From: a virus | DNA: 64,000 bases | IMG/VR virus record: IMGVR_UViG_3300025424_000296 | Location: 1 to 64,000 of that record | Reading direction: 5' to 3' (one strand) | Shown: positions 1-61,735 of the stretch, piece after piece | Position numbering within the stretch: the first letter of the stretch is position 1 | Layout of the letters: the number at the start of each line of letters is the position of its first letter | Program-made: the position numbers and the translations under genes | The notes under the pieces: generated by a model | Database searches by the model: none | What the model was told of the DNA's origin: nothing | Seen by the model: only the letters and a program-made list of their open reading frames with translations

Positions 1-1668
1 GTAGGTGCATTAACTAACTGGACACAAGTTTCTGCTGGTTTCTATAACATCGCAGCAGTTAAAACTGATGGAACACTATGGACCTGTGGATATAATAATT
101 ATGGTCAATTGGTTTTTCCTCAAGTGTCAACGATAGTTTTACCAAATCTTTCCTCTCCTATACAAGTGGGTGCACTTACCACATGGAAACAAGCTGCTGC
201 TGGATCAAACTTTGCAGCAGCAATTAAAACTGATGGAACATTATGGGCCTGGGGATATAATAGTTTTGGTCAATTGGGTAACAACGACCCAACTTTAGCC
301 CAACAATCTTCTCCAGTTCAAGTTGGTGCATTAACTAATTGGAAACAAGTTTCTGCTGCACAAAATTTTGCAGCAGCAATTAAAACTGATGGAACACTAT
401 GGGCCTGGGGAACAAACACCTCTGGTCAATTGGGTAATGGTACAACAGTTCTTTATTACTCCTCTCCCATACTAGTGGGTGCATTAACTAATTGGAGTCA
501 GGTTTCTGCCGGTACTGGTTTTACAGCAGCAGTTAAAACTGATGGAACATTATGGGCCTGGGGAACAAACAACGCTGGTCAATTGGGAAATGGTACAAAT
601 ACTGCTTATTTATCACCTATTCAAATTGGTGCGTTAACTACGTGGAAACAGATGTCTGCTGCACCAAATTTTACAGCAGCAGTTAAAACTGATGGAACAT
701 TATGGGCCTGGGGAACAAACAACGCTGGTCAATTGGGTATTGGTACAACAGTTCTTTATTCCTCACCTATACAAGTGGGTGCATTAACTAATTGGAAACA
801 AGTTTCTGCTGCACAAAATTTTGCAGCAGCAATTAAAACTGATGGTACATTATGGGCTTGGGGAATAAACATTACTGGTCAATTGGGTAATGGTACTGTC
901 ACAACTTATTATTCCCCAGTTCAAGTAGGTGCATTAACCAACTGGAGTCAGGTTTCTGCTGCACCAAATTTTATAACAGCAGTAAAAACTGATGGAACAT
1001 TATGGGCATGTGGACTAAACACCTCTGGTCAATTGGGTATTGGAACTACTACTTTATATTCATCTCCCGTTCAAGTTGGTGCATTAACCACGTGGAGTCT
1101 AGTTTATGCCGGTACTGGTTTTATAACAGCAGTAAAAACTGATGGAACATTATGGACATGTGGACTAAACACCTCTGGTCAATTGGGTTATAGCACAACT
1201 CAATCGAGCGTACCTCTTCAGTTGTCCTCTCCGGTTCAAGTAGGTGCATTAACCAATTGGAAATATGTTGCTGTTAATTCTTCAGGTTATTCAATGGCAG
1301 CAGTAAAAACTGATGGTACATTATGGACTTGTGGATATAATGGTCAAGGTCAGTTGGGTAATAGTACAATCGTTTCTTATTCCTCTCCAGTTCAAGTAGG
1401 TGCATTAACCAACTGGAGTACCGTTGCTACCGGTGTTAATAACACAGCGGCAATCAAAACTGATGGTACACTATGGACCTGGGGAATTGATAATTATGGT
1501 CAATTGGGTAATGGAACATCTGCATGGTATTCATCCCCAGTTCAAGTAGGTGCATTAACCACTTGGAATACGGTTTCAGTTGGGAACAATTCAATGGTAG
1601 CTACAGCAACACCAGCTGCTCCAACTTTTACTATAAACATCGGGCCCGGTGTGAAATTTAACACTTAA
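1..1668 (+). CDS. RCC1-repeat protein, 5' end outside window
   Basis: The frame is open from the first base, so the start lies outside the window; 555 codons are visible. They form about ten near-identical repeats of roughly 50 residues, each with KTDGTLWxWG, a GQLGNG turn and SSPVQVGALTxW. This is the RCC1 beta-propeller blade pattern (pairs of blades give a seven-bladed ring). In phages such proteins are usually fibre or adhesin parts, so host-surface binding is an inference. The repeats are very similar in DNA as well, suggesting recent expansion by recombination. The first visible blade is irregular: the GNG turn is replaced by VFPQVS. The C-terminal 20 residues leave the repeat. No SD or promoter can be seen. 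Confidence 0.8.
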   Translation, partial: VGALTNWTQVSAGFYNIAAVKTDGTLWTCGYNNYGQLVFPQVSTIVLPNLSSPIQVGALTTWKQAAAGSNFAAAIKTDGTLWAWGYNSFGQLGNNDPTLAQQSSPVQVGALTNWKQVSAAQNFAAAIKTDGTLWAWGTNTSGQLGNGTTVLYYSSPILVGALTNWSQVSAGTGFTAAVKTDGTLWAWGTNNAGQLGNGTNTAYLSPIQIGALTTWKQMSAAPNFTAAVKTDGTLWAWGTNNAGQLGIGTTVLYSSPIQVGALTNWKQVSAAQNFAAAIKTDGTLWAWGINITGQLGNGTVTTYYSPVQVGALTNWSQVSAAPNFITAVKTDGTLWACGLNTSGQLGIGTTTLYSSPVQVGALTTWSLVYAGTGFITAVKTDGTLWTCGLNTSGQLGYSTTQSSVPLQLSSPVQVGALTNWKYVAVNSSGYSMAAVKTDGTLWTCGYNGQGQLGNSTIVSYSSPVQVGALTNWSTVATGVNNTAAIKTDGTLWTWGIDNYGQLGNGTSAWYSSPVQVGALTTWNTVSVGNNSMVATATPAAPTFTINIGPGVKFNT

Positions 1669-11434: not shown

Positions 11435-12694
11435 ATGGGAAGCGGTAAACAATTGCATACTTGTAACTTTTGCGGTAAAAATCAATTAGAAGTAGAAAAA
11501 TTAATATCTGGTAATGATGTATTCATTTGTAATGAATGTATCACACTATGCTATGACATTCTAGAAGATGATAACGAAGAAAAAAAGAAAAAATCCAAGA
11601 AAGATTTGATAAGTCCTGCTGCTATCAAGACATTTCTTGATGATCGTGTGATTGGACAAGATATTGCTAAACGCATGCTAAGTGTTGCCATTTATAATCA
11701 TTATAAAAGAGTCAATAACCCAGTAATAGATGGGGTTGAAATTGATAAAAGTAACATGCTATTCATTGGTAGTAGCGGTGTTGGTAAAACATACATAGTA
11801 CAAAACATTGCCAAGATACTTGATGTACCATTTGTTATTGTTGATGCTACCAGTTTAACTGAAAGTGGATATGTGGGTCTCGATGTAGAGGAAGCTATCA
11901 CCAGACTTTATCAATCAGCTAATCAGGATATTGAAAAGACTCAGCGTGGTATTGTATACATTGATGAAATTGATAAGAAAGCTCGTAAAAGTGAAAGCAG
12001 TAGCATAACACGCGATGTTAGCGGTGAGGGCGTACAGCAAGCACTACTCAAAATGATGGAAGGTTGCGAAGTCAAAGTTCCCCCTCAGGGCGGACGTAAA
12101 AATCCACACGGTGAGTTTATTCTAGTAGACACTAAAAATATCTTGTTCATTGTCGGCGGGGCATTTGTTGGCTTATCAAAAGCCATTGCCAAACGACTCG
12201 ACAAGGATAATACAGGAATAGGATTTGGTGCCAAATTCTCATCCAATGATGAGGAAGAAAAGAATAGTATTGAATATCTTAAAAAGGTAGACAGTGACGA
12301 CTTAACCAGTTTTGGATTGATACCTGAAATGATCGGACGTTTACCAATTATTGTTCCTTTTGCAGATTTGGAAGAAGACGATTTGGTTAAAATTCTTCTT
12401 GAACCAAAAAATGCCATAATTAAACAGTATCAAAAAATGTTTAAATTGGACAATGTTACATTGGAGTTCGAACCTGAATCATTGAATGCTGTTGCTAAAT
12501 TAGCAATCAAAAGAAAAACAGGTGCCAGAGGATTGAGAAGTATTCTGGAATCAATATTATTACCTATACAGTTTGACTTACCAACTTATTCAGCTAATAA
12601 TATAGAGAAGATCGTTATTACAGACGAGTTTATAAACGGAGGTAAAGAGCCATTGTTAGTATATCGTACAGCAACCAAGGAACAGACTACATGA
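11435..12694 (+). CDS. clpX: ATP-dependent unfoldase ClpX
   Basis: ClpX unfolds tagged proteins and feeds them to ClpP, or remodels complexes alone. The 419-aa protein is full length. N-terminal zinc finger (CNFCGK ... CNECITLC), Walker A GSSGVGKT, pore loop GYVGLDVEE, Walker [12 protein letters not shown], sensor/arginine region [10 protein letters not shown]. The ClpP-docking IGF loop is kept ([10 protein letters not shown]), so it can in principle dock host ClpP; no clpP is in the window. The stop overlaps the IF-3 start (ATGA), a tight pair. SD AGGAC. The conservation suggests capture of a host gene. Confidence 0.95.
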
Positions 12695-16388: not shown

Positions 16389-18254
16389 ATGACACGTACT
16401 ATCGGAATAGATCTTGGAACTACTAATAGCTGTGTAGCCATCATGGAAGGCGGCAAGGCAAAAGTAATCGAAAATGCAGAAGGCGCACGTACAACACCAA
16501 GTGTTGTAGCATGGACTGATCAGGAACAACTGGTCGGACAGCCTGCAAAGCGTCAAGCAATAACCAATCCAGAAAATACAGTATTTGAAGCTAAACGTTT
16601 AATTGGGCGTAGATTTGACGATCCAACTGTTAAGAAAGACATGAAGAGTTTATCATATCATGTGGTAAAAGCCGACAACGGCGATGCATGGGTAGACATC
16701 AAGGGCAAGAAATATAGCCCACAGGAAATTTCAGCACAAGTCTTACAAAAGATGAAGAAAACTGCTGAAGACTATCTTGGGTCACCTGTGACCAAAGCAG
16801 TTATCACAGTACCTGCATACTTTTCAGATTCTCAGCGTCAAGCAACCAAGGATGCTGGCAAGATTGCTGGATTAGAAGTCCTACGTATTATCAACGAGCC
16901 AACTGCGGCTGCTATGGCATTTGCTGTAGACAAGGGTGGTTCTGGTAAAGTTGTAGTAGTCGACGCTGGTGGTGGCACTCACGACGTTTCGGTGTTAGAT
17001 ATCGGTGACGGTGTCATCGAAGTGTTATCCACTAACGGTGATACACACCTTGGCGGTGCTGACTTTGACGAAGTTGTATTCCATTATCTAGTAGATGCAT
17101 TTAAAAAAGAAAACGGAATAGATCTTACCACAGATAAGATGGCAGTACAGCGTCTAAAAGAAGCTGCTGAAAAGGCCAAGATTGAACTTTCAAGTGCAAC
17201 TGAAACTGACATCAATTTACCATATATTACAGCAGATAGTTCTGGGCCAAAGCATCTTGTTACCAAACTAACTCGTGCTAAGTTTGACAGCCTTACAGAA
17301 GATCTTGTTAAACGCATCATTGCTCCGTGTAAGCGAGCTCTTAAGGATGCTAACCTAAAAGTTAGTGATATCAAAGAAGTGTTGTTAGTAGGTGGTACCA
17401 CTCGTATTCCTGCTGTTAAGACAGCTATTAAAGAGTACTTTGGTAAGGAGCCAAATAACTCTGTTAATCCAGACGAAGCAGTTGCTATTGGTGCTGCAAT
17501 TCAGGGAGGTGTTCTAGCCGGCGATGTCAAGGACGTGGTACTACTAGACGTTACACCATTAAGCCTTGGTATCGAAACATTGGGTGGTGTGTTTACTAGA
17601 CTAATTGATCGCAACACTACTATTCCTAGCAAAAAGAGCCAAGTGTTCTCTACTGCTGAAGACAATCAACCTGCTGTTACTATCCGTGTGTTCCAGGGTG
17701 AACGCGAAATGGCCAACGACAATAAGTTGTTGGGTCAGTTCAATTTGGAAGGTATTGCTCCGGCACGTCGTGGTATGCCTCAGATCGAAGTTACATTTGA
17801 TATTGATGCTAACGGCATTGTTAATGTCAGTGCTACCGACAAGGGAACTGGTAAGGAACAGAAGATTTCTATCCAGGCTAATGGCGGACTTGACGACAAG
17901 GATATCGAGCGTATGATCCGAGAAGCTGAAGAAAATGCTGAAGCTGACAAGAAAAAGCGTGAAATTGTGGATGCCCGTAACGGTGCTGATGCAATGATAG
18001 CCAGAGTTGAAAAAACCCTCGAAGAGGACGGTGATAAGATTGATGCAACTCTTAAAGCAGAGGTTGAGCAAGCTATTACTGATCTTAAAGCAGTTATGGA
18101 TAGCGAAGACGCAGAAGTTATACGTAATAATACCAATGCATTGGCTCAGGCTAGTATGAAAATTGGCGAAATCATGTATAAAGAAGCACAAGCCAACGCT
18201 GCTAAACCTGATGATGATGACATCATTGACGGAACAGCTGAAGAAGTAGCATAA
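16389..18254 (+). CDS. dnaK: Molecular chaperone DnaK (Hsp70), full length
   Basis: DnaK binds exposed hydrophobic segments in an ATP cycle driven by DnaJ and GrpE. All 621 residues are present: ATPase start [74 protein letters not shown], then the substrate domain ([19 protein letters not shown]) and an acidic tail [14 protein letters not shown], the usual end. The phosphate loop usually reads DLGGGTFD; here it is DAGGGTHD. No dnaJ or grpE is in the window, so host partners are presumed. SD AAAGGAGA. A complete Hsp70 in a phage is unusual. Confidence 0.95.
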
Positions 18255-26705: not shown

Positions 26706-26909
26706 GTGGTAAAAGTATATCAACAAGACACATATAATTATTACCCAGATGAACCCTCCGCTTCATATAGAGAAGGTTTACGAGCATATAGAAGTTGGTT
26801 AAATTCCGGCAATCGACGCCCAGAAAATCCCTACTGGTTTGGATTAGATGAAAGCAGAGATTATCTCGAATGGGAACGCGGTTGGCTAGATGGTAGCTTT
26901 GAAATCTAA
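26706..26909 (+). CDS. Hypothetical protein, 67 aa, GTG start
   Basis: GTG with AAGGAGG at 5 nt. Rich in Tyr and Trp (YNYYPDEPSASYREGLRAYR, YLEWERGWLDG); resembles small ribosome-modulation-factor-like helical proteins in its EGxxA...G pattern, but the match is weak. Confidence 0.5.
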   Translation: MVKVYQQDTYNYYPDEPSASYREGLRAYRSWLNSGNRRPENPYWFGLDESRDYLEWERGWLDGSFEI

Positions 26910-27613
26910 CGATTGAGAGTCTTACAATTATTAAAATGATATCTTGCCATATTTCTATGTCCGCCTACTTTTTTACAATGCGGGCAAATTACTGGTTGTT
27001 GCTTCATATCTTGTTTAGCCCTTGCAATTCTGATTTTTTCTAAAGTTGATTCTTTTATTCCGTTGGTTTCGTAATAACGTTTTAATGACTGGGCTCGTTT
27101 ATTTTTTGTAGCAGTTGAATCTTTTCTACCTCGGTGAGAATTAGCTCTTTTGCGCTTAGTTTCTTCTGATTGTTTTCGGCCTTTTAAAGTTTTACTTATT
27201 TTAGCTTTTGTTTCTTGAGTTATTACTTGTTTAGCTCTTGCCGCACGTTTTTTACGTAGTGTGTCTTCTGATTGTTTTCGACCTTTTAATATTTTAGCAC
27301 GTTCTTCCTTTAAATATTTGTATGTTCTATTAGATATATTATTAAATTTATTCTCATTAGTTTTCATAGTCATAGCCCACGCAGCGAAAATCATCTTTCG
27401 TTTAGCGTCTCCGTGAGTCATTTTAGGTAATAGTCTATGACATATAAAATGTTCTTTAGCTGTTAACGATACCAAGTTACTTTTATCGTCAGACCCGCCG
27501 ATAGATTTTGGTATAATATGATGTTTTTCAGTATACCCATTAATGATTCTTAATTTAGCATGTTCTATTATTTTATAGTAAGTTTTTGTATATTTGTTCT
27601 GTATAAATGTCAT
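26906..27613 (-). CDS. HNH homing endonuclease with NUMOD3 repeats
   Basis: HNH core EKHHIIPKSIGGSDDKSNLV and LTAKEHFICHRLL in the first 80 residues, then several NUMOD3 DNA-binding repeats (KISKTLKGRKQSEETKRKRA), and a C-terminal zinc ribbon CPHCKKVGGHRNMARYHF with a final Cys. Free-standing, lying between two unrelated genes. Intact at 235 aa. Confidence 0.9.
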   Translation of the reverse strand: MTFIQNKYTKTYYKIIEHAKLRIINGYTEKHHIIPKSIGGSDDKSNLVSLTAKEHFICHRLLPKMTHGDAKRKMIFAAWAMTMKTNENKFNNISNRTYKYLKEERAKILKGRKQSEDTLRKKRAARAKQVITQETKAKISKTLKGRKQSEETKRKRANSHRGRKDSTATKNKRAQSLKRYYETNGIKESTLEKIRIARAKQDMKQQPVICPHCKKVGGHRNMARYHFNNCKTLNR

Positions 27614-27625
27614 TAAGATCCTGAT

Positions 27626-28831
27626 TTAAATATATTTGTCAATAGAATTTCTTAAAGATTTTCGTAAATCGCAAATCATTGCATCTGTATGATTTGGAGT
27701 AGGGGTAATTCGTAATCTTTCTGTTCCAATAGGGACTGTAGGATATCCAATTGGTTGTATATAGATATTATGTTCATCTAATAACCAATCAGACACTTGT
27801 TTACAGCGCACAGCATTGCCTATTATTAGGGGTACAATATGTGTATTACCTGGCATGACATTGAAGTTTTCTTGTGCCAATTGTTCTTTGACTTTATCAA
27901 CTACCTCAAACATGCGACTTCTTGCTTCTGGATGATCTTGAACATAACGCACACTGGCTAGTGCACCTGCACATAGTACAGGACTCATACTGGTACTGAA
28001 TATAAATCCGTTAGCATAGCTGCGTATCATATCAATAAGATCACGTCCGCCTGCAATATATCCTCCCTGTATACCAAATGCTTTGCCTAATGTTCCCTGT
28101 ATGATATCAACTCCGTCTACACAATGTTGTTCTTCTGCAATACCAGCACCCCGAACACCATAAAGACCTACAGCGTGAACTTCATCTACATAAACCATAG
28201 CACCGTACTGACGAGCAATATCACATACATCAGATATAAGACCTTTGTCGCCATCCATGCTATACACACCTTCCATGGCAATAATAGGTTGTGCATCATC
28301 GTCTAGACTTTTCAGTATTTCCTTAAGATGAGCTAGATCATTATGATTCCAAACAGTACAGGGTGCTCGACTGCTTTTCATACCAACAATCATGCTATTA
28401 TGATTCATACTATCGGATATAAAATGAACTCCTGTGATTATTTTACCTAATACATTAAGTGTGGATTGATTAGCAACATACCCACTGGTGAATAACAGTG
28501 CAGCAGTTTTATCGTGTAGTCTAGCCAGTTCACTTTCTAAGGCTGTATGAAAATGAGTAGTACCGGATATATTACGAGTACCACCACTACCAGCACCAGT
28601 TGTGTCGAGCGCAGTATGCATAGCATCAATAACGACTTTATGTTGCGCCATACCGAGATAATCATTTGCACACCAATTTGTAATATGTTTAATACCATAT
28701 TTGCCATAGAACATGGCTTTGGGAAAATGACCGCGCTCTCTCAGAATATCTGTAAAAACTCGATAATTGCCATCAGATTTTAATTTCTGTAGACTTTGTG
28801 CAATAGCATCTTGTGTTTTTGATTTTAACAT
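27626..28831 (-). CDS. hemA: 5-aminolevulinate synthase (ALAS)
   Basis: PLP enzyme joining glycine and succinyl-CoA to give 5-aminolevulinate, the first step of the C4 route to heme, used by alphaproteobacteria and mitochondria. The 401-aa protein is complete: NWCANDYLGMAQHKVVIDAM, GAGSGGTRNISGTTHFH, LLFTSGYVANQSTLNVLG, MNHNSMIVGM, VYVDEVHAVGLYG, catalytic Lys in GTLGKAFGIQGGYIAG, FSTSMSPV, ERLRITPTPNHT. ATG 28831 chosen; an upstream start would add an unconserved tail. Head-to-tail with the HNH gene. It may raise heme or tetrapyrrole supply in the infected cell. Confidence 0.93.
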   Translation of the reverse strand: MLKSKTQDAIAQSLQKLKSDGNYRVFTDILRERGHFPKAMFYGKYGIKHITNWCANDYLGMAQHKVVIDAMHTALDTTGAGSGGTRNISGTTHFHTALESELARLHDKTAALLFTSGYVANQSTLNVLGKIITGVHFISDSMNHNSMIVGMKSSRAPCTVWNHNDLAHLKEILKSLDDDAQPIIAMEGVYSMDGDKGLISDVCDIARQYGAMVYVDEVHAVGLYGVRGAGIAEEQHCVDGVDIIQGTLGKAFGIQGGYIAGGRDLIDMIRSYANGFIFSTSMSPVLCAGALASVRYVQDHPEARSRMFEVVDKVKEQLAQENFNVMPGNTHIVPLIIGNAVRCKQVSDWLLDEHNIYIQPIGYPTVPIGTERLRITPTPNHTDAMICDLRKSLRNSIDKYI

Positions 28832-28882
28832 TATTAAATATTTCTCTAGAAAAACAATTATAAACAAATCATTATGTGATAT

Positions 28883-29751: not shown

Positions 29752-29776
29752 AAGTTTAAATCAAAATAATTTTATA

Positions 29777-29805
29777 ATATCCTGTCGTTTGGCAGGATAT
29801 TTTTA
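29777..29805 (+). terminator. Intrinsic terminator
   Basis: ATATCCTG, 8-nt loop, CAGGATAT then TTTTTA. Confidence 0.85.
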
Positions 29806-29874
29806 TGACATTAAACTTTATTGATTCAAAATATCAATGAATATACACTTTATAAACGTAAGGAGTAAATATCA

Positions 29875-30081
29875 ATGACAAAAGCACAATACGACGGTAT
29901 TATTGCACATATTGAAGCCAAACATAAATCTGGGTATCGTTTAAGGTTACATATGTCAAACGGCGAATATGTTCAAGGAACAGTAGAATTAGTAGGAACA
30001 CGTACTCTAATAGTTAATCAGGATACTAACCAAATAGCTTATGCTGATTTAGATCGTGTTGATTATATTACAGTTGGATAA
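29875..30081 (+). CDS. Small Sm/SH3-like protein, 68 aa
   Basis: AAGGAG SD. After a helix (MTKAQYDGIIAHIEAKHKSG) come five likely strands: RLRLHMSNGEYVQGTVELVG, RTLIVNQDTNQIAYADL. This order resembles Sm-like folds but no Hfq motif is seen. Lies before prkA. Confidence 0.5.
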   Translation: MTKAQYDGIIAHIEAKHKSGYRLRLHMSNGEYVQGTVELVGTRTLIVNQDTNQIAYADLDRVDYITVG

Positions 30082-30151
30082 TATACTGGGTTATGTATAG
30101 TAAACTACTCATTTAAGTTAAATAGTATGTAAATACAAAAAAGGCTTATTA

Positions 30152-32086
30152 ATGACAAATATCTTTGACGACATTTTACAGGAAAAAAAGAAAATGCAAA
30201 GAGAGTCAATGAGTTTCATTGACTATCTTAAGCTGTGTAAGAAAGACTCATCAGTTTACGCTTCAGCTGCTGAACGCATGTTAGCAGCAATTGGTAAACC
30301 TACCATTGTTGATACCAGCAAAGACCCTAGACTGAGCAGAATCTTTCTCAATCGTACACTGCAAGTATATCCTGCGTTCAGCGATTTTTATGGTATGGAA
30401 GATACTATTGAACGTATTGTAGGATACTTTCGCCATGCTGCACAGGGTCTTGAAGAAAAGAAACAGATCCTTTACCTGCTGGGTCCAGTTGGCGGCGGCA
30501 AATCAAGTATTGCAGAACGTCTTAAAGAATTAATAACACGTTTACCATTTTATGTATTAACAGCAGAAGATGGAACACTGAGTCCAGTATTTGAAACTCC
30601 TCTTGGGGTGTTTGATGTTAATAGTCACGGTGAGAAATTAAAGAAGGATTATGGAATTGATCCTCGTTATCTTAATACCATTATGAGTCCATGGGCGATT
30701 AAAAGACTAGCAGAGTATGAGGGTGATGTTGGTCGTTTTCGTGTTACCAAAGTATGGCCAAATAAACTAGAACAAATTGGTGTTGTTAAGACCGAACCGG
30801 GCGACGATAACAACCAAGACATTTCAAGTCTAGTTGGTAAAACTAATATTCGCATGCTTGAACACTATGATCAAAATGATCCAGATAGTTACAGTTTCAG
30901 TGGTGCATTATGCCGTGGTAATCAGGGCATAATGGAGTTTGTTGAAATGTTCAAGGCTCCTATTAAGATGTTGCATCCGCTACTAACAGCTACACAAGAA
31001 GGCAATTATATCGGTACAGAAGGCATAAGTGCTATTCCATTCTCAGGTGTTGTCCTTGCACACTCCAACGAAGCAGAATGGCAAAGCTTTAAGAATAACA
31101 AGAACAATGAAGCATTTATTGATCGTGTTTATGTTGTTAAGGTTCCCTACTGTTTGCGTGTCAGTGATGAAGTTAATATCTATAAAAAAATGCTAGAACA
31201 CAGTAGTTTAAACAATGCCGTGTGCGCACCACAAACACTAGAAATGCTCAGCAAGTTCTGCGTATTAACTCGTTTAAATGAACATGAGAATAGCAGTCAA
31301 TACAGCAAGATGCGTGTATATGACGGTGAAGCAATTAAAGATGTAGATCCCAAAGCACGTAGTATACAAGAATATCGCGATGCTGCTGGTGTTGATGAAG
31401 GTATGGGTGGTATTAGTACACGTTTTGCATTCAAAGTTTTAAGTAAAACATTTAATTTTGATACAGCAGAAATAGCAGCAGATCCGGTTCATTTGATGTA
31501 TGTGCTTGAAGATAGCATACGCAGAGAACAGTTCAAAGACGATGTAGAAAACCGTTACATAGATTTTATCAAAGAGTATCTGGCACCCAAGTATGCGGAA
31601 TTCATTGGCAATGAGATTAGACAAAATTTCATTGAAAGTTATGCCGAATACGGTCAAAATTTATTTGATCAATATGTTGCGTATGCAGATGCGTGGATAC
31701 AAGAAATTGATTTTAAAGATCCAGATACAGGTAATATGTTTGATAGAGATATATTGAATAAGGAATTGGAGAAGATTGAAAAGCCAGCTGGCATTGCTAA
31801 TCCCAAAGACTTCCGTCACGAAGTTGTTAACTTTGTGTTAAGAGCTCGTGCAAAGAACGGCGGAGAGATATTGTGGTCAACTTATGAAAAATTACGCGAA
31901 GTCATTGAAAAGAAAATGTTTTCGACCTCAGATGACATGTTACCAGTTATATCTTTTGGTGCAAAAAGTAATTCTGAAATTCAATCAAAACACAGCGAAT
32001 TTGTAGATAGAATGAAAAATAACAGATATACTGAACGTCAAATTAAACGTTTAGTAGATTGGTTTATAAGAACTCAAAAAAGTTAA
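30152..32086 (+). CDS. prkA: PrkA/YeaG serine protein kinase, AAA+
   Basis: PrkA (E. coli YeaG) combines an AAA+ core with a kinase-like C-terminus and acts in stationary-phase and nitrogen-starvation responses; some studies ascribe Lon-like protease activity to it. 644 aa, full length: SFIDYLKLCKKDSSVYASAA, RLSRIFLNRTLQVYPAFSDF, Walker A GPVGGGKSSIAERLK, then the usual long helical C-terminus ending RQIKRLVDWFIRTQ. TAAATAG and GTAAATAC late-like boxes lie in the leader. It heads the trio prkA, yeaH, spoVR, interrupted by a homing endonuclease gene. Confidence 0.95.
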   Translation: MTNIFDDILQEKKKMQRESMSFIDYLKLCKKDSSVYASAAERMLAAIGKPTIVDTSKDPRLSRIFLNRTLQVYPAFSDFYGMEDTIERIVGYFRHAAQGLEEKKQILYLLGPVGGGKSSIAERLKELITRLPFYVLTAEDGTLSPVFETPLGVFDVNSHGEKLKKDYGIDPRYLNTIMSPWAIKRLAEYEGDVGRFRVTKVWPNKLEQIGVVKTEPGDDNNQDISSLVGKTNIRMLEHYDQNDPDSYSFSGALCRGNQGIMEFVEMFKAPIKMLHPLLTATQEGNYIGTEGISAIPFSGVVLAHSNEAEWQSFKNNKNNEAFIDRVYVVKVPYCLRVSDEVNIYKKMLEHSSLNNAVCAPQTLEMLSKFCVLTRLNEHENSSQYSKMRVYDGEAIKDVDPKARSIQEYRDAAGVDEGMGGISTRFAFKVLSKTFNFDTAEIAADPVHLMYVLEDSIRREQFKDDVENRYIDFIKEYLAPKYAEFIGNEIRQNFIESYAEYGQNLFDQYVAYADAWIQEIDFKDPDTGNMFDRDILNKELEKIEKPAGIANPKDFRHEVVNFVLRARAKNGGEILWSTYEKLREVIEKKMFSTSDDMLPVISFGAKSNSEIQSKHSEFVDRMKNNRYTERQIKRLVDWFIRTQKS

Positions 32087-32087
32087 A

Positions 32088-33059
32088 ATGAATTACATAG
32101 AACATTATAATAAATTAATTTTGCGAGGGAAAACCAGAGGTATTAAAAAAAGCTCTACGGTATATTATGAATTACATCATATAGTCCCTAAATGTTTAGG
32201 TGGCACTAATAGTGATTCAAATCTTGTTTTATTAACACCAGAAGAACATTTTATTGCACATAAGTTATTGGTTAAAATTTATCCTAATAAAGGTAAATTA
32301 ATCTATGCAGTTAATATGATGTGTGTAGGCAGAAATAATAAAATGTATGGTTGGCTTAAAAAGAAACTTCAGCAGGTGTTGAAAGATGATAAAGAAAGAT
32401 CTGACAAAATTAGTAAATCTTTAACTGGTAGACATGTACCAGATTATATAGGAAGAAAAATTTCTAAATCTAATAAAGGTAGGATAATATCACAGTCAAC
32501 AAGAGAGAAAATATCAAATAGTACTAAAGGTGTTTCTAAACCAACTAACTTTGGTAAAAAAATTAGTGCCAGATTAAAAGGTAGAAAACATAATGATTTA
32601 CATCATAAAAAAGTTATAGATAGTAAATTAAGAAATGGTACATTACTGCAATCAAAATCTACAAAAGAAAAAATATCTAATAGCTTATCTAAATTGAAAT
32701 GGTATAATAATGGGACAACCAACATAAGATCGTCTGTTAATCCAGGATGTGATTATGTACCTGGAAGACTGCCAATAGCAAAAAAGAAAAAAATAAATCA
32801 AAAATATGATAAGGTTATTTTAGATACATCAACACTTCCTAAGTTCAAATATGATCATTACAAAAAATCTAACAACGGCAAACGAAATGGTGCATGGAAA
32901 GGGTATATTGTTACCCCTGATGGAATTTTTGAATCATCTATGCAGGCAGCTATATATTATAGCCTTACAGACGGTACTATAAGAAATAGATGTTTAAGTG
33001 ATAATCCAAAATTTAAAGAATGGGTACAACTTACTAATTTAGGTAATGAAAATGAGTGA
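32088..33059 (+). CDS. HNH/NUMOD homing endonuclease inserted in the prkA operon
   Basis: HNH core YYELHHIVPKCLGGTNSDSN and LTPEEHFIAHKLLVKIYP, many NUMOD3 repeats (KISKSLTGR, KISNSTKGVS, KISARLKGRK), and a C-terminal NUMOD-type helix-turn-helix (SSMQAAIYYSLTDGTIRNRC). 323 aa, intact. It starts 1 nt after prkA and ends inside the yeaH start, so the element inserted without breaking either gene. GC is lower than its flanks. Confidence 0.9.
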   Translation: MNYIEHYNKLILRGKTRGIKKSSTVYYELHHIVPKCLGGTNSDSNLVLLTPEEHFIAHKLLVKIYPNKGKLIYAVNMMCVGRNNKMYGWLKKKLQQVLKDDKERSDKISKSLTGRHVPDYIGRKISKSNKGRIISQSTREKISNSTKGVSKPTNFGKKISARLKGRKHNDLHHKKVIDSKLRNGTLLQSKSTKEKISNSLSKLKWYNNGTTNIRSSVNPGCDYVPGRLPIAKKKKINQKYDKVILDTSTLPKFKYDHYKKSNNGKRNGAWKGYIVTPDGIFESSMQAAIYYSLTDGTIRNRCLSDNPKFKEWVQLTNLGNENE

Positions 33060-34338
33060 TTACCACATAATCGACCAACGTTCGAATCCTAAGGGTAAGA
33101 ACTTACCAAATCGTCAAAAGTTCCTTAAGAAGGTGCGCAAGCAGCTAACCGATCAGGTTAGGGGTGCCATTGGCAAACGTAAAATAACCGATAGCCGCGG
33201 AGAAGATATCAAAGTACCGGTAGACGGAATAAATGAACCCAGCTTTGATTATGACAGAACTACCGGCGAATGGGAAAGAATACTTCCTGGTAATAAAAAC
33301 TTCAGTGTGGGTGATCGAGTTAAAAAACCACCTAGCAGTGGAGGCAAAGGTGGCGGAAGCGGGTCTGGTGGTAACGGCGGTGAAGGTCAGGACGATTTCC
33401 GCTTTACTATAACCCGAGAAGAATATTTGGATATTGTGTTCGAAGATCTGGAATTGCCAGATATGATCAAACGTACCGAAAAGGCAGCTACAATATGGCA
33501 TAAGATACGTGCTGGATTTAAAACAGATGGCAACCCCAGTCAACTAGATCTTGTACGTAGCATGAAGAACAGTTTAGGACGTAGACTAGCACTACGCAAA
33601 CCGTTAGAACGCAAGGTTAATGAGATACAGTCGTTATTAGAGGACAGTGATAATCCAGAACTACTCTTAGAAGAAATTGAAAAGCTTCAGAAGAAACGCA
33701 GTAGTATTCCCTGGGTTGATCCTATGGACCTACGTTATCGTAGATTTGATAAGAACCCTGTGCCTAATAGTCAAGCAGTGATGTTTTGCTTGATGGATGT
33801 TAGTGGCAGTATGGGTCAACATGAAAAAGATATAGCCAAGCGATTTTATTTGTTGTTGTATTTGTTCCTGCAAAGAAAATATGAAAAGGTACAATTGGTA
33901 TTTGTACGTCACACAGAAGATGCTCGAGAAGTAGACGAAGATGAGTTTTTCAACAGTCAGGAAACAGGCGGAACTGTTGTAAGTAGTGGATTAGAATTGG
34001 TAAACAATATCATAAAAGAACGCTATCCGTTAGATGCCTGGAACATATATGTGGTGCAAGCCAGCGACGGTGATAATTATAGTCACGACAATCAGGTCTG
34101 TACAGAATTGTTAAATGAACTACTTCCCAAGGTTCAATATTATGTTTATGCTGAAGTCAAAAATTATAATAATTTGCGAGAAATATTCATGGTGAACCCC
34201 CGACATTCCGGTCTTTGGGAAATTATGAACAATCTGATGCCTCGTTATGAACAACTGGTGAGTGTCCAATTAACCGACGTAGAAAGTGTAGTACCCATAT
34301 TCAGAAGTGTATTTGCCCGGGAGAAGACCAATGGTTAA
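33052..34338 (+). CDS. yeaH: YeaH/DUF444 protein with VWA domain
   Basis: Partner of YeaG/PrkA in stress responses. 428 aa: N-terminal HIIDQRSNPKGKNLPNRQKF, GKRKITDSRGEDIKVP, a Gly-rich linker (residues about 98-117), and a C-terminal von Willebrand A domain with the MIDAS motif MDVSGSMGQHEKDIAKRFYL and TGGTVVSSGL. ATG 33052 is used, inside the end of the endonuclease gene. The stop overlaps spoVR by 8 nt. Confidence 0.95.
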   Translation: MSDYHIIDQRSNPKGKNLPNRQKFLKKVRKQLTDQVRGAIGKRKITDSRGEDIKVPVDGINEPSFDYDRTTGEWERILPGNKNFSVGDRVKKPPSSGGKGGGSGSGGNGGEGQDDFRFTITREEYLDIVFEDLELPDMIKRTEKAATIWHKIRAGFKTDGNPSQLDLVRSMKNSLGRRLALRKPLERKVNEIQSLLEDSDNPELLLEEIEKLQKKRSSIPWVDPMDLRYRRFDKNPVPNSQAVMFCLMDVSGSMGQHEKDIAKRFYLLLYLFLQRKYEKVQLVFVRHTEDAREVDEDEFFNSQETGGTVVSSGLELVNNIIKERYPLDAWNIYVVQASDGDNYSHDNQVCTELLNELLPKVQYYVYAEVKNYNNLREIFMVNPRHSGLWEIMNNLMPRYEQLVSVQLTDVESVVPIFRSVFAREKTNG

Positions 34339-35809
34339 ACCTCTGTTCACAGGTTCTGAATGGGATTTTGAGTTATTAGACCGAGCAATGCGCGAGTGTG
34401 GCATTATAGCTAAAGAAGAATTAAGACTTGATACTTATAAAAATCAAATATGTGTAGTTAGTTCAGAACAAATGCTAGATGCTTATGCCAGCACAGGGCT
34501 TCCGGTTATGTATAAACATTGGAGTTTCGGTAAGAAATTCAGCCGAGAACGAGATCTATATCAAAAAGGAAAAAGAGGTCTTGCATATGAATTGGTATTA
34601 AACCTAGACCCTTGTATCAATTATTTAATGGAAGAGAATACAGCTTGTACTCAGGTCCTTGTTATTGCACATGCGGCGTATGGACACTGTCACGTGTTCA
34701 AAAACAATTATATGTTCAAGCAATGGACAGAAGCCGATTCAATGTTAGACTATCTAATCTTTGCACGTAATTATATAGTGCAATGCGAAGAACATTATGG
34801 TGAAGAAGCTGTTGAAGCGACATTAGATAGTGCTCATGCATTGATGATGAACGGTATTGATCGTTACAAGCGCCCACGTAAATTGTCCATGGTTGAAGAA
34901 CAGTTAAGACAGAAAGAGCGTACTGAATATCTTGAACGCACCGTTAACGATCTATGGCGTACATTACCCAGGACAGATAATGAAGATAACACTAATGAAG
35001 GTTATAAATTCCCAGCACAACCAGAAGAAAATATACTCTATTTCTTAGAAAAGAATAGCCCTGTATTAGAACCATGGCAGAGAGAAATACTTCGCATAGT
35101 ACGCAAACTTGCACAGTATTTCTATCCACAGTATCTTACCAAAATGTTAAACGAAGGCTGGGCCAGTTTTACACACTATTATATCATGAATAGATTACAT
35201 GATAAAGGCCTATTAACTGATGGTGCAATGTTAGAGTTCTTGAAATTACACACATCTGTACTTTATCAACCCGAGTACGATAGTCCATATTTCAGCGGGT
35301 TAAATCCCTACTATCTTGGCTTTGAAATATTCATGGACATCAAAAGAATGTGTGAAAATCCTGACGATGAGGATCGAGAACTATTCCCTGATATTGCGGG
35401 AAGTAACTGGGTTGATACCTGCTTAGATGCTGTGGCAAATTATCGCGATGAGAGTTTTGTACATCAATTCCTAAGTCCCAAAGTTGTACGCAAAATGAAA
35501 TTGTTCAAGGTTGTAGATGACAGCAGAGAAGATCATTTCGTGATTGATGCTATTCAAAACCGAGAAGGGTTCAAAGATATTCGCAGTAGACTAGCTCGTA
35601 GTTATGAGCTAGATGATTGGTGCCCTAAGGTAGAAGTATCTAATGCTGATATCAAAGGCGATAGAACATTAACATTAACCTATTACAGGGAGCGCGGTCG
35701 TAATATTGGAGGTAGCTGGCAGGTTATGCTATCTCATGTCCAAAGTCTATGGGGACATAAAGTCAAATTGGTTACTGCTAGAGGTAATACCATTGGCGAA
35801 ATAGCCTAA
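34331..35809 (+). CDS. SpoVR/YcgB family protein
   Basis: Third member of the conserved prkA-yeaH-ycgB set; SpoVR is needed for spore cortex in Bacillus, YcgB role is unclear. 492 aa with SEWDFELLDRAMRECG, YKHWSFGKKFSRERDLYQKG, VIAHAAYGHCHVFKNN, the EGWASFTHYYIMNRL motif and NPYYLGFEIFMDIKR, all typical. ATG 34331 after GGGAGAAG. Complete. Confidence 0.95.
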   Translation: MVKPLFTGSEWDFELLDRAMRECGIIAKEELRLDTYKNQICVVSSEQMLDAYASTGLPVMYKHWSFGKKFSRERDLYQKGKRGLAYELVLNLDPCINYLMEENTACTQVLVIAHAAYGHCHVFKNNYMFKQWTEADSMLDYLIFARNYIVQCEEHYGEEAVEATLDSAHALMMNGIDRYKRPRKLSMVEEQLRQKERTEYLERTVNDLWRTLPRTDNEDNTNEGYKFPAQPEENILYFLEKNSPVLEPWQREILRIVRKLAQYFYPQYLTKMLNEGWASFTHYYIMNRLHDKGLLTDGAMLEFLKLHTSVLYQPEYDSPYFSGLNPYYLGFEIFMDIKRMCENPDDEDRELFPDIAGSNWVDTCLDAVANYRDESFVHQFLSPKVVRKMKLFKVVDDSREDHFVIDAIQNREGFKDIRSRLARSYELDDWCPKVEVSNADIKGDRTLTLTYYRERGRNIGGSWQVMLSHVQSLWGHKVKLVTARGNTIGEIA

Positions 35810-36023: not shown

Positions 36024-36287
36024 ATGGGTTACGTTGTTTTCCACATTAACTCTAAGCGCAATGTTGGTTGGAAGCGTACTGAGCGTGGTGCCAAGATTAG
36101 CGTTGCTGCTTGGAATCGTCGTAGTAAGGGTGTGAATTACGATATTATGGAAGAAAACGAGTTTAATGAAAAGCATAATGGTTATGTCACTGTTAAGAAT
36201 ATGATGAGCGGTAATGACGTTCAGATCCGTGCCCAGGACGTTGGTGGTCCGTGTGATCCCAGTACTGAATTATATCATTGTATGTAG
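36024..36287 (+). CDS. Hypothetical early-type protein, 87 aa
   Basis: AAGGAG SD at ATG 36024. Begins MGYVVFHINSKRNVGWKRTE; basic first half, GC-rich codons like other promoter-linked small genes. C-terminus GGPCDPSTELYHCM. Unknown role. Confidence 0.65.
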   Translation: MGYVVFHINSKRNVGWKRTERGAKISVAAWNRRSKGVNYDIMEENEFNEKHNGYVTVKNMMSGNDVQIRAQDVGGPCDPSTELYHCM

Positions 36288-37046
36288 ACAACACCACCAC
36301 CCACCAAGGTGTGTTTTCTGAAATCCACTTGCAACACTTAACATAATTTTATATGTTAAGTGTTTTTCTTTACAAAATAGTTTTAGATTGTTGGTAATAA
36401 ATTCTTCATTTGTTGGACTGGTTATTTTGTAACATTTGTTACCGTTTGTCCCATTTTTAATTCTTGTTGCTACTGCTTTTTTTCTTGCTTGAGGCGTTGC
36501 AGCAGCTTTGGTCCAATGGTCTAAATTACCGCGTTGTTGTTGTGTTTTCCGACTTTTTGCTATTGATTCAGGAGTACAAGTCTTTAATGTCCCACGACGG
36601 GCTAATCGTGTTGCTAGTTGTTTTTTAATAGATTCGGGGCTGATAGTTACTAATGTATTATTGCGTCGTTTAGTCTCTAATTGTTTTTTAATAGAACTAG
36701 GAGAATTTGAATTTAATTTTCCATTTTTCTTTTTAGTTTCTATGATTTTCTTTTTACTTTCTTCTGATAACCTGCCGCCGTCTCCTGCTTCTTCTTTTAA
36801 GTTAGCCCAATTACGATCTTTAACAACATTCCATAATTTACTGTAATACAATCCCCATTCTATTAGTTCTTCTTCTGTTTGACATTCTCGTAGAATTTCT
36901 GTAGTGTAGTCATAGCCGTGCTTATCAAGATGGTTAAGCCATCTTGTTCCGGAGCCCGGGTACTTATGAGGATCTTTTCGAATAGTTTTACCTAGATATT
37001 TCAATCCTGTCTTATTATGTGTTTTAACATACAGATAAATAGGCAT
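36270..37046 (-). CDS. GIY-YIG homing endonuclease with NUMOD3
   Basis: YLYVKTHNKTGLKYLGKT followed by KYPGSGTRWLNHLDKHGYDY is the N-terminal GIY-YIG variant of phage Seg-type enzymes. NUMOD3-like repeats follow (RLSEESKKKIIETKKKNGK, PESIKKQLATRLARRG). 258 aa, intact. Its end overlaps the end of the previous plus-strand gene. Confidence 0.9.
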   Translation of the reverse strand: MPIYLYVKTHNKTGLKYLGKTIRKDPHKYPGSGTRWLNHLDKHGYDYTTEILRECQTEEELIEWGLYYSKLWNVVKDRNWANLKEEAGDGGRLSEESKKKIIETKKKNGKLNSNSPSSIKKQLETKRRNNTLVTISPESIKKQLATRLARRGTLKTCTPESIAKSRKTQQQRGNLDHWTKAAATPQARKKAVATRIKNGTNGNKCYKITSPTNEEFITNNLKLFCKEKHLTYKIMLSVASGFQKTHLGGWWCCLHTMI

Positions 37047-39519: not shown

Positions 39520-41685
39520 ATGAAGGTTGTTACCTCACCTACAGCCACAGTTGATCATGCTAATGCAAACACCGACCAACAGTTCAGCATCAACTTTGAT
39601 GCTAAAATGGCTCGCATTCTTGCAGACGGATTATATTCTGACAAGGTGCAGAGTGTTATACGTGAGCTGAGCTGCAATGCATATGACAGCCATGTTGAAG
39701 CCGGCAACAGGGATTATTCAATTGAAATTCATCTTCCGACATATGCAGAACCTTGGTTCCATGTCAGAGACTTTGGTGTCGGACTCAGCCATGACCAGGT
39801 AATGAAAATCTATACTCAGTATGGTGCTAGTACCAAGACCAACAGCAATGACGTTATCGGGCAGTTGGGTCTTGGTAGTAAGAGTCCGTTTAGTATCACT
39901 GACTCGTTTACAGTAGAGGCTCGTCAAAATGGCATCGAGAATCACTACAAGATGTACCGCAACGAACAGGGTATGCCTTGTGTTGCGCATCTGCATCAGG
40001 GTCCTACAAGTGAGACTGATGGAGTTACGGTTAAGGTGCCGGTAAACACTAGTATGACAGCAGAGTTTGCGGAAAAAGCTCGCAATGTTTATAAATGGTT
40101 CCCAATCAAGCCCACAGTTGTAGGCGGATCTATAATATATAACTCAGTTGAATATGCATATCGTGGATCAGGTTGGGGTATTGGTAAAGGACCGGAGAGT
40201 AACCGGTATGGATGGTCTCGTAGACACGACAATCCTGTAGCACTGATGGGTCTTGTGGCTTATCCGCTCGATGTAAACAGTATCAAAGACATCACTGATT
40301 CTGCTCGTACTATATTAACAGGTACGCCATTGGTGTTGGAATTTGATATCGGTGAGCTCGAAGTTGCGGCTAATCGCGAAGCTCTTGGGTATGATAGTCG
40401 TACCTGTGCTAATATTAATACCAAATTGTCACAAATGTTAAAAGATCTTGCTACAGATTTTGCTAATCAAATTTCCAGTGCTAAAACACTTTGGGAAGCC
40501 AAACTCAAGTTCGGCGAAATCTTTAGCAAGAGCACATATGCTAATGTGTTTGGTAATGTGTTCAGGGATCACGGATTTACCTGGGGTAGTTTTGAAATCA
40601 ACAACACTGTAATTGATTTCAGTACTCGCAACTACTATCCCATTGACAACAACGGTCATGTTGTAATTGACATATATCAGGCCAATCACCGATATAAACG
40701 CCCTCGAAAGATAATTGCCATCGAAGATAATATTTCGTTTCGATGTGACCCTACCACTGTTATCATGTTCAATGATCTGGACAAAGGTGGATTGAGCCGT
40801 GTAGCTGAATATAATAAGAACACCAGCTATAGAAACGAAATTTGGCTGTTTGGGCCAAGTCCTAGAAAATCTTGGAGTCAGTTACGTGAAGCTCTAGGTA
40901 ACCCAGAAGTCATAATGACCAGTTCTCTCGCCAAGCCAGAGCGTAAGGTATCTGAACGTACTGACATGCTCAAATGGAATGGCGGATTTAGCAACGGTAA
41001 GAAAGCCTGGTTGCAAGTTACTATAGATTTAGATAATGCCGGACACTGCTATTATGTTGAACTAAATGGTTGGGATGTGCAACGAGACGGCAAGTATGTC
41101 AGTGACCTTGGTTGGTATATTCGCGAAGCAAAGGCAGCAGGTATTATACATCCGACATCAGAAGTGTATGCTATGCGTAACAAGAACAAGAAATTGGTAC
41201 GCGAGCATGCCAATTGGAAGGAACTGTTCAGCACCATTAAAAATGGTGTAATGAATAAGATCAGTAAAGGCACACTAGCACAAGAAGTAGCTGATAATGA
41301 GGAATACACTCGCTTGTGCAGCTTATCAAGTTGGAGATTCTGGGAAAGTGGTATTGCTCCGCGAGCTCACGATAGTGTGTTCAAAGACTTCTGTGCTAAA
41401 ATTGATGCAATCAAATCTGTTAACAGGTTGGCTAACTTGGACGCAATCAAGAACTTGGCTAGTCGATATGAAGTTGCCATGGTTAAAGCTGCACCCAGAT
41501 ATGATTTAACCGCAGAATTTGAAAAGGTTAAGAAACACTATCCCATGCTTGATCTTATCCTGGGGCGTATTTCGTCATACAATCGACCAGACTCTGCTAT
41601 GTTAACAACGGTGGGTGACTATATTGACATGGTTGATGCATGTTGGGTGTTCTATGCATTGCAGGATCGAACGGAGGAAGAGTGA
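39520..41685 (+). CDS. rIIA: rIIA-like GHKL ATPase, 721 aa
   Basis: T4 rIIA is a membrane-associated protein tied to lysis inhibition and resistance to lambda Rex exclusion. N-terminal GHKL ATPase fold: IRELSCNAYDSHVEAG (N-box), VRDFGVGLSHDQVMKIY (G1), IGQLGLGSKSPFSITDSFTV (G2 region). The remainder is helical, as in rIIA (725 aa in T4). No rIIB is visible directly downstream. SD GTAGGAG. Confidence 0.88.
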   Translation: MKVVTSPTATVDHANANTDQQFSINFDAKMARILADGLYSDKVQSVIRELSCNAYDSHVEAGNRDYSIEIHLPTYAEPWFHVRDFGVGLSHDQVMKIYTQYGASTKTNSNDVIGQLGLGSKSPFSITDSFTVEARQNGIENHYKMYRNEQGMPCVAHLHQGPTSETDGVTVKVPVNTSMTAEFAEKARNVYKWFPIKPTVVGGSIIYNSVEYAYRGSGWGIGKGPESNRYGWSRRHDNPVALMGLVAYPLDVNSIKDITDSARTILTGTPLVLEFDIGELEVAANREALGYDSRTCANINTKLSQMLKDLATDFANQISSAKTLWEAKLKFGEIFSKSTYANVFGNVFRDHGFTWGSFEINNTVIDFSTRNYYPIDNNGHVVIDIYQANHRYKRPRKIIAIEDNISFRCDPTTVIMFNDLDKGGLSRVAEYNKNTSYRNEIWLFGPSPRKSWSQLREALGNPEVIMTSSLAKPERKVSERTDMLKWNGGFSNGKKAWLQVTIDLDNAGHCYYVELNGWDVQRDGKYVSDLGWYIREAKAAGIIHPTSEVYAMRNKNKKLVREHANWKELFSTIKNGVMNKISKGTLAQEVADNEEYTRLCSLSSWRFWESGIAPRAHDSVFKDFCAKIDAIKSVNRLANLDAIKNLASRYEVAMVKAAPRYDLTAEFEKVKKHYPMLDLILGRISSYNRPDSAMLTTVGDYIDMVDACWVFYALQDRTEEE

Positions 41686-60175: not shown

Positions 60176-61735
60176 ATGCAAATTAATAGTATAATAATTG
60201 TAGGCGGGGGATCATCAGGATGGATGACTGCTGCTCTAATTTCAAAATTACTACCTGAAATTAATTTATCACTAGTAGAATCTAAACATATACCTATCAT
60301 CGGCGTCGGGGAATCAACTTTATCAAGTATTAACTCATATTTGCGAAGACTTGAAATACATGATGATCAATGGATGAGTAAATGTAATGCTACTTATAAA
60401 ACATCTATTAGATTTACTAATTTTTTTGAACAGGGTAAATCATATCATGACGTATTAAAATATCTAGAGGTTCCATTTCCCATACCAGGTAATTTTGGAA
60501 TTACAATATTTAATCTATTATGCCTTAGATTTCCTGACGAATTTAGACCAGAAGATTTACCTAAATTTGCAGATGACACTTGGCAAATGATAGAAAATAA
60601 CAGGTACACCGATGATCCTGGTCCAATGAGTTGGGATACTAAAAAAGAAAAAGCATATCATTTTGATGCTTATAAATTTGGATTGGTATTAAAAGATTTA
60701 TTAGCCATTCCGAATGGAACAACACACATACAAGACGATGTATTAGAAGTACAAACTGATAAATTTGGTGTTAGCGGACTTGTGACTAAAGAACATGGAA
60801 TATTAACAGCCGACTTATACATAGACTGTACAGGATTTAAGTCGTTATTGCTAGGTGAAACATTGGATACCCCTTTTAATAGGTTTGATGATACGCTGTT
60901 AAATAATAAAGCTGTAGTTACCAACATACCATATCTTGATAAAGTTAATGAATTAACCAGTTATACTGATTGTACAACCATGCCAAATGGTTGGCTATGG
61001 ACTATCCCTACATGGGATAAACTCGGAACAGGATATGTTTATTCAGATAAATTTGTTGATAATGAAACTGCAAAAAAACAATTTATAGACACTCTGAGAT
61101 CTCGATATGGAGACAGAGTTAACGAATGTGAATTCCGTTACATTGAATTCACTCCCGGTGTGAGGGATATACCATGGAATAAAAATGTCGTCGGTATTGG
61201 ACTAAGTTGTGGATTTATAGAACCACTTAGATCAACCGGACTTCAGGTTACACATGATATGGCAATAACATTAACTGATATATTAATTAAAAACAGTAGG
61301 AAAATAGGTAGTATTAATAAAGAAATTTATAATTTTAATGTTAAAGTACTCTTGCACAATGCTAGAGATTTTGTATCTTTACATTACGCATTATCTAAAA
61401 GATGCGACACAGATTATTGGAAACACGCAGTAAATGATGTAAGTTATTTTAAGGATAATGATCTTTTTAAACAATTTGCATATTCTGGAACTAGTAATGT
61501 ATTGAATAAATTTAACAGTAATGATCAAATGTTTAGAACGTATGCTAGTTCTGGATATAATAGAATGACAGAAGCTGATTTTAAAATTTTATTAGACGAT
61601 AATCCTGATTTAGATAGAGATTTACAAACTGTTAAAAAGATATGGACAAGACGGCATCAAGAAATCGGAGCATATGTAAAAACGTTGCCTACTACAGCTG
61701 AATTTTTAAAGAAAAATATATATAATACCGATTGA
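60176..61735 (+). CDS. Flavin-dependent tryptophan halogenase-like enzyme
   Basis: FADH2-dependent halogenases make HOCl/HOBr/HOI that passes down a tunnel to a lysine and then to the substrate. 519 aa: FAD motif IIIVGGGSSGWMTAALIS, IIGVGESTLSSINSYLRR, candidate catalytic Lys75 (CNATYKTSIRFTNFF), the halogenase signature WLWTIP in NGWLWTIPTWDKLG, and GFIEPLRSTGLQVTHD. All key marks are kept. A marine cyanophage (Syn10) homologue, VirX1, iodinates many substrates. No flavin reductase is in the window. SD AAGGTAGAG. Confidence 0.9.
   Translation: MQINSIIIVGGGSSGWMTAALISKLLPEINLSLVESKHIPIIGVGESTLSSINSYLRRLEIHDDQWMSKCNATYKTSIRFTNFFEQGKSYHDVLKYLEVPFPIPGNFGITIFNLLCLRFPDEFRPEDLPKFADDTWQMIENNRYTDDPGPMSWDTKKEKAYHFDAYKFGLVLKDLLAIPNGTTHIQDDVLEVQTDKFGVSGLVTKEHGILTADLYIDCTGFKSLLLGETLDTPFNRFDDTLLNNKAVVTNIPYLDKVNELTSYTDCTTMPNGWLWTIPTWDKLGTGYVYSDKFVDNETAKKQFIDTLRSRYGDRVNECEFRYIEFTPGVRDIPWNKNVVGIGLSCGFIEPLRSTGLQVTHDMAITLTDILIKNSRKIGSINKEIYNFNVKVLLHNARDFVSLHYALSKRCDTDYWKHAVNDVSYFKDNDLFKQFAYSGTSNVLNKFNSNDQMFRTYASSGYNRMTEADFKILLDDNPDLDRDLQTVKKIWTRRHQEIGAYVKTLPTTAEFLKKNIYNTD

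Follow-up and report, generated by a model that had tools for sequence, protein, structure and literature searches.

A complete PrkA-YeaH-SpoVR gene set, known from a bacterial operon, is encoded by a phage in the 64,000-nucleotide stretch analyzed here (the window; bases 1-64000 of a 113,210-bp IMG/VR virus record). The set recurs in other viral contigs, is present or cleanly absent among sister jumbo phages, and to judge from its sequences has long resided in phages, where purifying selection has acted on it. The explanation toward which we lean, tentatively and by analogy with E. coli, is that this would be a complete and functional host-type stress module, kept by jumbo phages as a discrete cassette, that brakes the metabolism of the starved infected cell.

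Gene content and phage origin of the locus

The first-pass annotation proposed three complete genes in the order prkA, yeaH, and spoVR, and the family searches agree with it in span, order, and common strand (Table 1). PrkA contains both the AAA_PrkA domain (PF08298, E 3.4e-168) and the PrkA domain (PF06798, E 1.4e-67), far exceeding the curated cut-offs, and scores 1149 bits, above cut-off, against the NCBIfam equivalog NF011999. YeaH is a DUF444 protein (PF04285, E 1.1e-150; NF003707 above cut-off) with a complete MIDAS-type vWA motif, and SpoVR matches PF04293 (E 2e-159), SpoVR_C (PF24755, E 7e-14), and the equivalog NF008737 (748 bits, above cut-off). The DUF444, SpoVR, and SpoVR_C matches likewise lie far above their curated cut-offs, and all equivalogs of the set (PRK15455, PRK05325, and PRK11767) are represented over cut-off. 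The genes had also been described as overlapping, which holds for YeaH and SpoVR, whose reading frames share 8 bp, but not for PrkA and YeaH, which are not contiguous; the order and strand are those of the operon, and strict adjacency is broken by one homing endonuclease gene. The ATG at 34331 is the likelier SpoVR start, with the GTG at 34307 an improbable alternative. The region immediately upstream of PrkA probably holds expression signals and a short open reading frame, as read from the sequence. A promoter scan of the 400 bp 5' of PrkA found no more sigma-70-like matches than in shuffled sequence, and no T4 late promoter was found near the trio.

Table 1. Coordinates of features in the window
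Feature	Positions	Strand	Size	Basis
RCC1-like repeat protein	109-1668			phrog_4219, "regulator of chromosome condensation"
ClpX	11435-12694			NF003745 over cut-off
DnaK-like chaperone	16389-18254			huge-phage and Lak-phage relatives
Second HNH homing endonuclease, upstream of trio, adjoining ALAS gene	26906-27613	-		phrog_655, E 2.8e-53; PF01844 over cut-off
5-Aminolevulinate synthase (ALAS)	27626-28867	-		TIGR01821, 547 bits
Region upstream of PrkA	29752-30151	+	400 bp	candidate expression signals and short ORF (sequence reading)
PrkA/YeaG family protein	30152-32086	+	644 aa	AAA+ ATPase and PrkA C-terminal domain
HNH homing endonuclease between PrkA and YeaH	32088-33059	+	323 aa	phrog_655, E 1.6e-49
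YeaH/DUF444 von Willebrand A-type protein	33046-34338	+	428-430 aa	PF04285; NF003707
SpoVR/YcgB family protein	34331-35809	+	~492 aa, counted from ATG 34331	PF04293; NF008737
GIY-YIG-like homing endonuclease, downstream of trio	36270-37046	-		N-terminal YLYVK..KYLGKT motif reading
rIIA	39520-41685			phrog_612, E 1e-119
Tryptophan-halogenase-like flavoprotein	60176-61735			phrog_2928, E 3e-126

The view that the trio is carried by a phage is well supported. The same record encodes rIIA, tail-fibre genes, and five tRNAs, GC content is low and uniform throughout the trio region, and the same gene arrangement is found in independent assemblies. Capsid and terminase genes are absent from the 113-kb fragment and present on the contigs of relatives. 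The two artifacts that the first-pass annotation had named as fatal to its claim, non-phage DNA and misassembly, are both rejected: phage genes flank the trio within DNA of uniform GC, which argues against host contamination, and misassembly is excluded because independent assemblies agree. The trio has the marks of auxiliary or host-takeover genes, being a set of host-type genes that a genuine phage genome encodes, that evolve under selection, and that relatives do without; its benefit to the phage is putative. The window further encodes an RCC1-like repeat protein, unusual for a phage, and a tryptophan-halogenase-like flavoprotein.

All three proteins retain the residues expected of working family members. 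PrkA is ~66% identical to Enterobacter YeaG, has an intact Walker A motif (GPVGGGKS), and its K428 aligns with YeaG K426, which was changed to alanine as a catalytically defective mutant (PMC10954441). In YeaH the MIDAS-type DxSxS (249-253), T308, and D339 are invariant in 24 sequences, and in SpoVR H63, E101, H114, H119, H169, E275, H282, and H307 are invariant in 73; the Walker A, K428, MIDAS, and SpoVR His/Glu residues are conserved over phage and bacterial members alike. Two SpoVR genes are split in frame by inteins, namely the gene at L029:9965-13015 (TIGR01445 over cut-off) and the gene at L078:8171-10081, in huge phage LR756504, which contains a mini-intein. The two inteins differ, and their insertion points, both at the conserved NEGWA (EGWA) motif, are separated by a few residues; because inteins favor functionally critical sites, the EGWA motif is likely to be important. 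Foldseek searches with two AlphaFold models of SpoVR (pLDDT 77 and 83) found no relative of its fold in the PDB, and the C-terminal part gave scattered low-confidence matches to ring-building domains that are not relied on here. The sole viral fold match below E 0.001 was an unnamed 617-aa protein of the same length as the SpoVR of Thermus phage phiLo. A reading of SpoVR as a metallopeptidase, from its HxxxGH...EGWA motifs, is not supported, since neither model has a PDB relative. The kinase and protease activities of PrkA are disputed, and B. anthracis PrkA was found to be an AAA+ protein in which kinase or protease activity was not detectable (PMC13001217).

The endonuclease gene within the trio starts 2 bp past the PrkA stop codon, and its end overlaps the YeaH start. 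The PrkA-YeaH junction is unoccupied in loci L008, L009, L010, and L030, where the PrkA stop and the YeaH start lie within a few bases of each other, is occupied by a related HNH gene in L006, and by a different endonuclease-like ORF in L007; because relatives show empty, related, or different occupants, it is a repeatedly used insertion site. The GIY-YIG-like ORF downstream has no match in the family library, and L012 and L013 have a similar gene close to the trio. This ORF, the endonuclease gene within the trio, and the second HNH gene are the only relatives of their kind in the 113-kb record, and all lie in one 10-kb stretch around the ALAS gene and the trio. The idea that homing endonucleases mark trio loci in general was rejected: such genes occur around several loci, and an excess over background was not demonstrated. 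The ALAS gene itself lies 13 bp from the second HNH gene and has relatives in 27 further viral loci (52-77% identity), with the trio nearby in none; phage ALAS has already been described (PMC11480375).

Distribution, inheritance, and age of the cassette

A search for the ordered trio in other phage genomes, which the first-pass annotation had suggested as a check, shows that it recurs in hundreds of viral contigs with its order kept. Alignment-based scans detected SpoVR in 349 viral stretches and PrkA in 271, from which the best 80 of each were retained; because some of the retained IMG/VR loci have bacterial-looking neighbors, both totals, including the 349 for SpoVR, set an upper limit to the number of true phage carriers. 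In the retained loci, PrkA, YeaH, and SpoVR lie in order on one strand in 101 of 106 SpoVR-anchored and 66 of 78 PrkA-anchored loci. The 17 incomplete loci of both sets are all truncated by a contig end, and every uncut retained locus is a complete ordered trio. Among 16 examined trio contigs of at least 155 kb, T4-type gp23 gave a strong match in 11, a partial match in three, and none in two, and terminase was over cut-off in 12; on these counts the carriers are mostly jumbo T4-type myoviruses. The largest trio contigs reach 578 kb. Pairwise protein distances of the three genes are correlated over 86 loci (r = 0.84-0.88; permutation maximum 0.16), and therefore the trio has been inherited as a unit. 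Enterobacter phage LAU1 was rejected as a known carrier, as its YeaG and YeaH genes, which start from base 1 and are not accompanied by SpoVR, look like terminal host DNA. In a group of ~6 loci an elongation factor G-like gene lies directly 3' of SpoVR (L170:9679-11799).

Sampling that was independent of the trio, by the capsid gene gp23 with the L010 phage as reference, recovered 12 contigs (61-385 kb) whose gp23 shares 80-97% identity with the reference gp23 and which encode neither SpoVR nor PrkA. Two of these phages, G155 (95% capsid identity) and G154 (96%), have an empty site in which ~45 bp separate the NAMPT stop codon from the next gene, thymidylate synthase comes after that gene, and no remnant of the trio is present. 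The same interval of the trio-bearing sister G005 (= L010) contains one extra gene and the trio, and in L009 and L030 NAMPT is followed by the trio within ~100 bp. Because sister jumbo phages with capsids 95-96% identical lack it cleanly, the trio is an all-or-none accessory cassette. The difference may reflect loss of the cassette from G154 and G155 or its gain by their sisters. The ~45-bp gap of G154 and G155 contains a strong hairpin followed by T's, and in L030 a hairpin of this sort follows SpoVR and no such structure is seen between NAMPT and PrkA. These hairpin positions suggest that the trio joined the NAMPT unit by insertion ahead of its terminator, with the caveat that generic terminators resemble each other. 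An AT-rich element upstream of PrkA, common to L009 and L030, could be a separate promoter.

The tree that had been called for to date the transfer was built for SpoVR from confirmed phage contigs and 29 Pseudomonadota. The window SpoVR falls in a phage-only clade of eight rows (UFBoot 100, SH-aLRT 97), inside a phage-only group of 14 rows (93/89). A single origin of all phage SpoVR is rejected by the AU test (p-AU 2e-7) in this unrooted tree, in which nearly all of the bacteria belong to a single phylum, and phages and bacteria have therefore exchanged the gene at least twice. Between the window and L006-L008, dN is 0.14-0.34 and dS is saturated in nearly all pairs. The deep phage-only clade and these rates are what point to long residence in phages under purifying selection.

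Candidate functions of the phage trio

In nitrogen-starved E. coli, YeaG and YeaH together serve as a "metabolic brake", and cells lacking yeaG or yeaH emerge from nitrogen starvation after a shorter lag (PMC10954441, PMC4664914). If the phage proteins act likewise, PrkA would use ATP as an AAA+ machine, with its C-terminal domain possibly providing a kinase-like output, YeaH would be its metal-dependent vWA adaptor, and SpoVR would join the complex as the third, effector partner. Expressed during infection, the trio would slow the metabolism of the infected cell, which would thereby remain energy-competent and viable while a long infection runs its course in a host that is starved or stationary. 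The host NtrC/RpoS signals would not be required for the phage-encoded version. The first-pass annotation had allowed that the trio might force cells either into or out of a stress state; the host genetics make this plausible, and the intact residues favor "into". The gene neighborhood of some lineages may also be relevant, as NAD-related genes lie upstream of the trio, namely SIR2 and nitroreductase genes in L006, L007 (L007:2393-4475), and L029, and genes for NAMPT and a CTP_transf_like-Nudix protein in L030 (L030:2931-6665) and L010. The position of NAMPT directly before the cassette in one sublineage fits a maintenance role. Against a stress role, the R. etli prkA mutant has no clear stress phenotype (PMC3188799). 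A reading of the trio as a defense system was rejected, as the sole hits to known anti-phage defense models were marginal ones to the IetA AAA protein (E 0.006 and 0.009).

In other phages the cassette adjoins capsid, tape-measure, or lysozyme-spike genes, and such structural neighbors could point to an assembly or envelope role instead. According to the first of these alternatives, which we regard as unlikely, the trio is an AAA+/vWA remodeling machine for the folding or assembly of phage structural proteins, and belongs to a late or proteostasis program rather than to host stress. The trio of Thermus phage Lalka27a lies between portal/minor head genes and TerL, that of TMA lies near TerL, ~19 loci have it after tape-measure and PAAR-lysozyme spike genes, and in L006 it precedes a head-protein-like gene; genes for ClpX and a DnaK-like protein also occur in the window phage, which would suit a proteostasis program. 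This context varies, however, and NAMPT, SIR2, or metabolic genes flank the trio in other lineages. The trio is not needed for assembly, because close relatives with near-identical capsids do without it.

It is quite unlikely, in our estimate, that the trio alters the envelope or peptidoglycan so as to delay lysis or exclude superinfection. The idea draws on the connection of SpoVR with the spore cortex, spoVR being a spore-cortex gene in Bacillus according to a reference quoted in PMC4605624, and on peptidoglycan-binding or lysozyme neighbors in TMA, MN1, and the PAAR-lysozyme group. Foldseek searches of the SpoVR models found no hydrolase fold, however, and the window's own clade has different neighbors. 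More doubtful again is an antagonism of the host trio by the phage copies, acting as decoys or in mixed inactive complexes, by which quiescent cells would become productive. The shorter lag that follows yeaG or yeaH loss would suit a phage (PMC10954441, PMC4664914), but all three proteins keep every known functional residue under purifying selection, which a decoy would not need, and the most economical reading of the sequences is that the phage carries a working machine. That the trio is passenger cargo, taken up recently from a host and without function for the phage, agrees with its presence/absence polymorphism but is highly improbable and largely refuted by purifying selection on phage branches, given saturated dS with low dN, a deep phage-only clade, and hundreds of viral contigs.

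The metabolic-brake explanation can be carried a step further, to a proposal that we put forward as speculation and consider rather improbable. Jumbo phages would trade PrkA-YeaH-SpoVR as a unit, a "pause" cassette aided in its movement by homing endonucleases at its edges and inner junction. It would impose a reversible quiescence that leads to a programmed stalled infection of starved cells, supported in some lineages by the phage's own NAD-salvage genes.

Relation to known systems and meaning for phage biology

The bacterial prkA-yeaH/DUF444-spoVR operon (R. etli, PMC3188799; E. coli yeaGH and ycgB) contains the same three families, in R. etli in the same order, and Pseudomonas and Cupriavidus loci (L068-L075) likewise share the order of the window. 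The window trio differs in being phage-encoded, in forming its own clade, and in having a homing endonuclease between its first and second genes, and NtrC/RpoS control is not evident for it, the promoter scan being at chance level.

Among phages, the Thermus phages phiYS40, TMA, phiLo, MN1, and Lalka have all three families close together as in the window phage, but in the order vWA-SpoVR-PrkA, in TMA with an extra gene, and with 23-28% identity to the window proteins. Their SpoVR versions are far more divergent in the tree comparison, and because their branches are very long the Thermus trio is taken to be a separate acquisition. The published description of the Ralstonia jumbo myovirus RsoM2USA, from which our comparison is made, places SpoVR (ORF28) and PrkA (ORF30) two ORFs apart on one strand, and its authors do not treat them as a module (PMC8504454). 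The huge phages LR756502, LR745206, and LR756504 (635-642 kb) encode all three families, with PrkA and SpoVR 50-61% identical to those of the window; unlike the window cassette, SpoVR of LR756502 lies ~245 kb away from PrkA-YeaH. In the viromes of a marine low-oxygen zone spoVR was the most abundant sporulation-type viral gene (PMC8940887), and the accessible part of that report treats it as a single gene, read as sporulation, and does not describe the trio, PrkA, or YeaH. SpoVR- or PrkA-like genes of Thermus and Ralstonia phages and spoVR in viromes are thus already on record. The intact cassette and its empty site appear to be undescribed, as do the homing endonucleases and inteins that target the cassette; in the searchable non-subscription literature we found no description of these or of the all-or-none distribution. 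A possible lead to a phage link of the host genes comes from E. coli selected for T7 resistance, in which yeaG E414K was fixed in one line, and from an iron-selected line with ycgB H127Y (PMC10044975).

The YeaG-YeaH-SpoVR module is conserved in bacteria, and for finding its role the phage sets offer a natural minimal set and the trio-less sister phages a natural deletion series. If the phage version is indeed a brake, it would explain the long infections of giant phages in starving hosts, and would add the control of host dormancy to the known strategies of phages.
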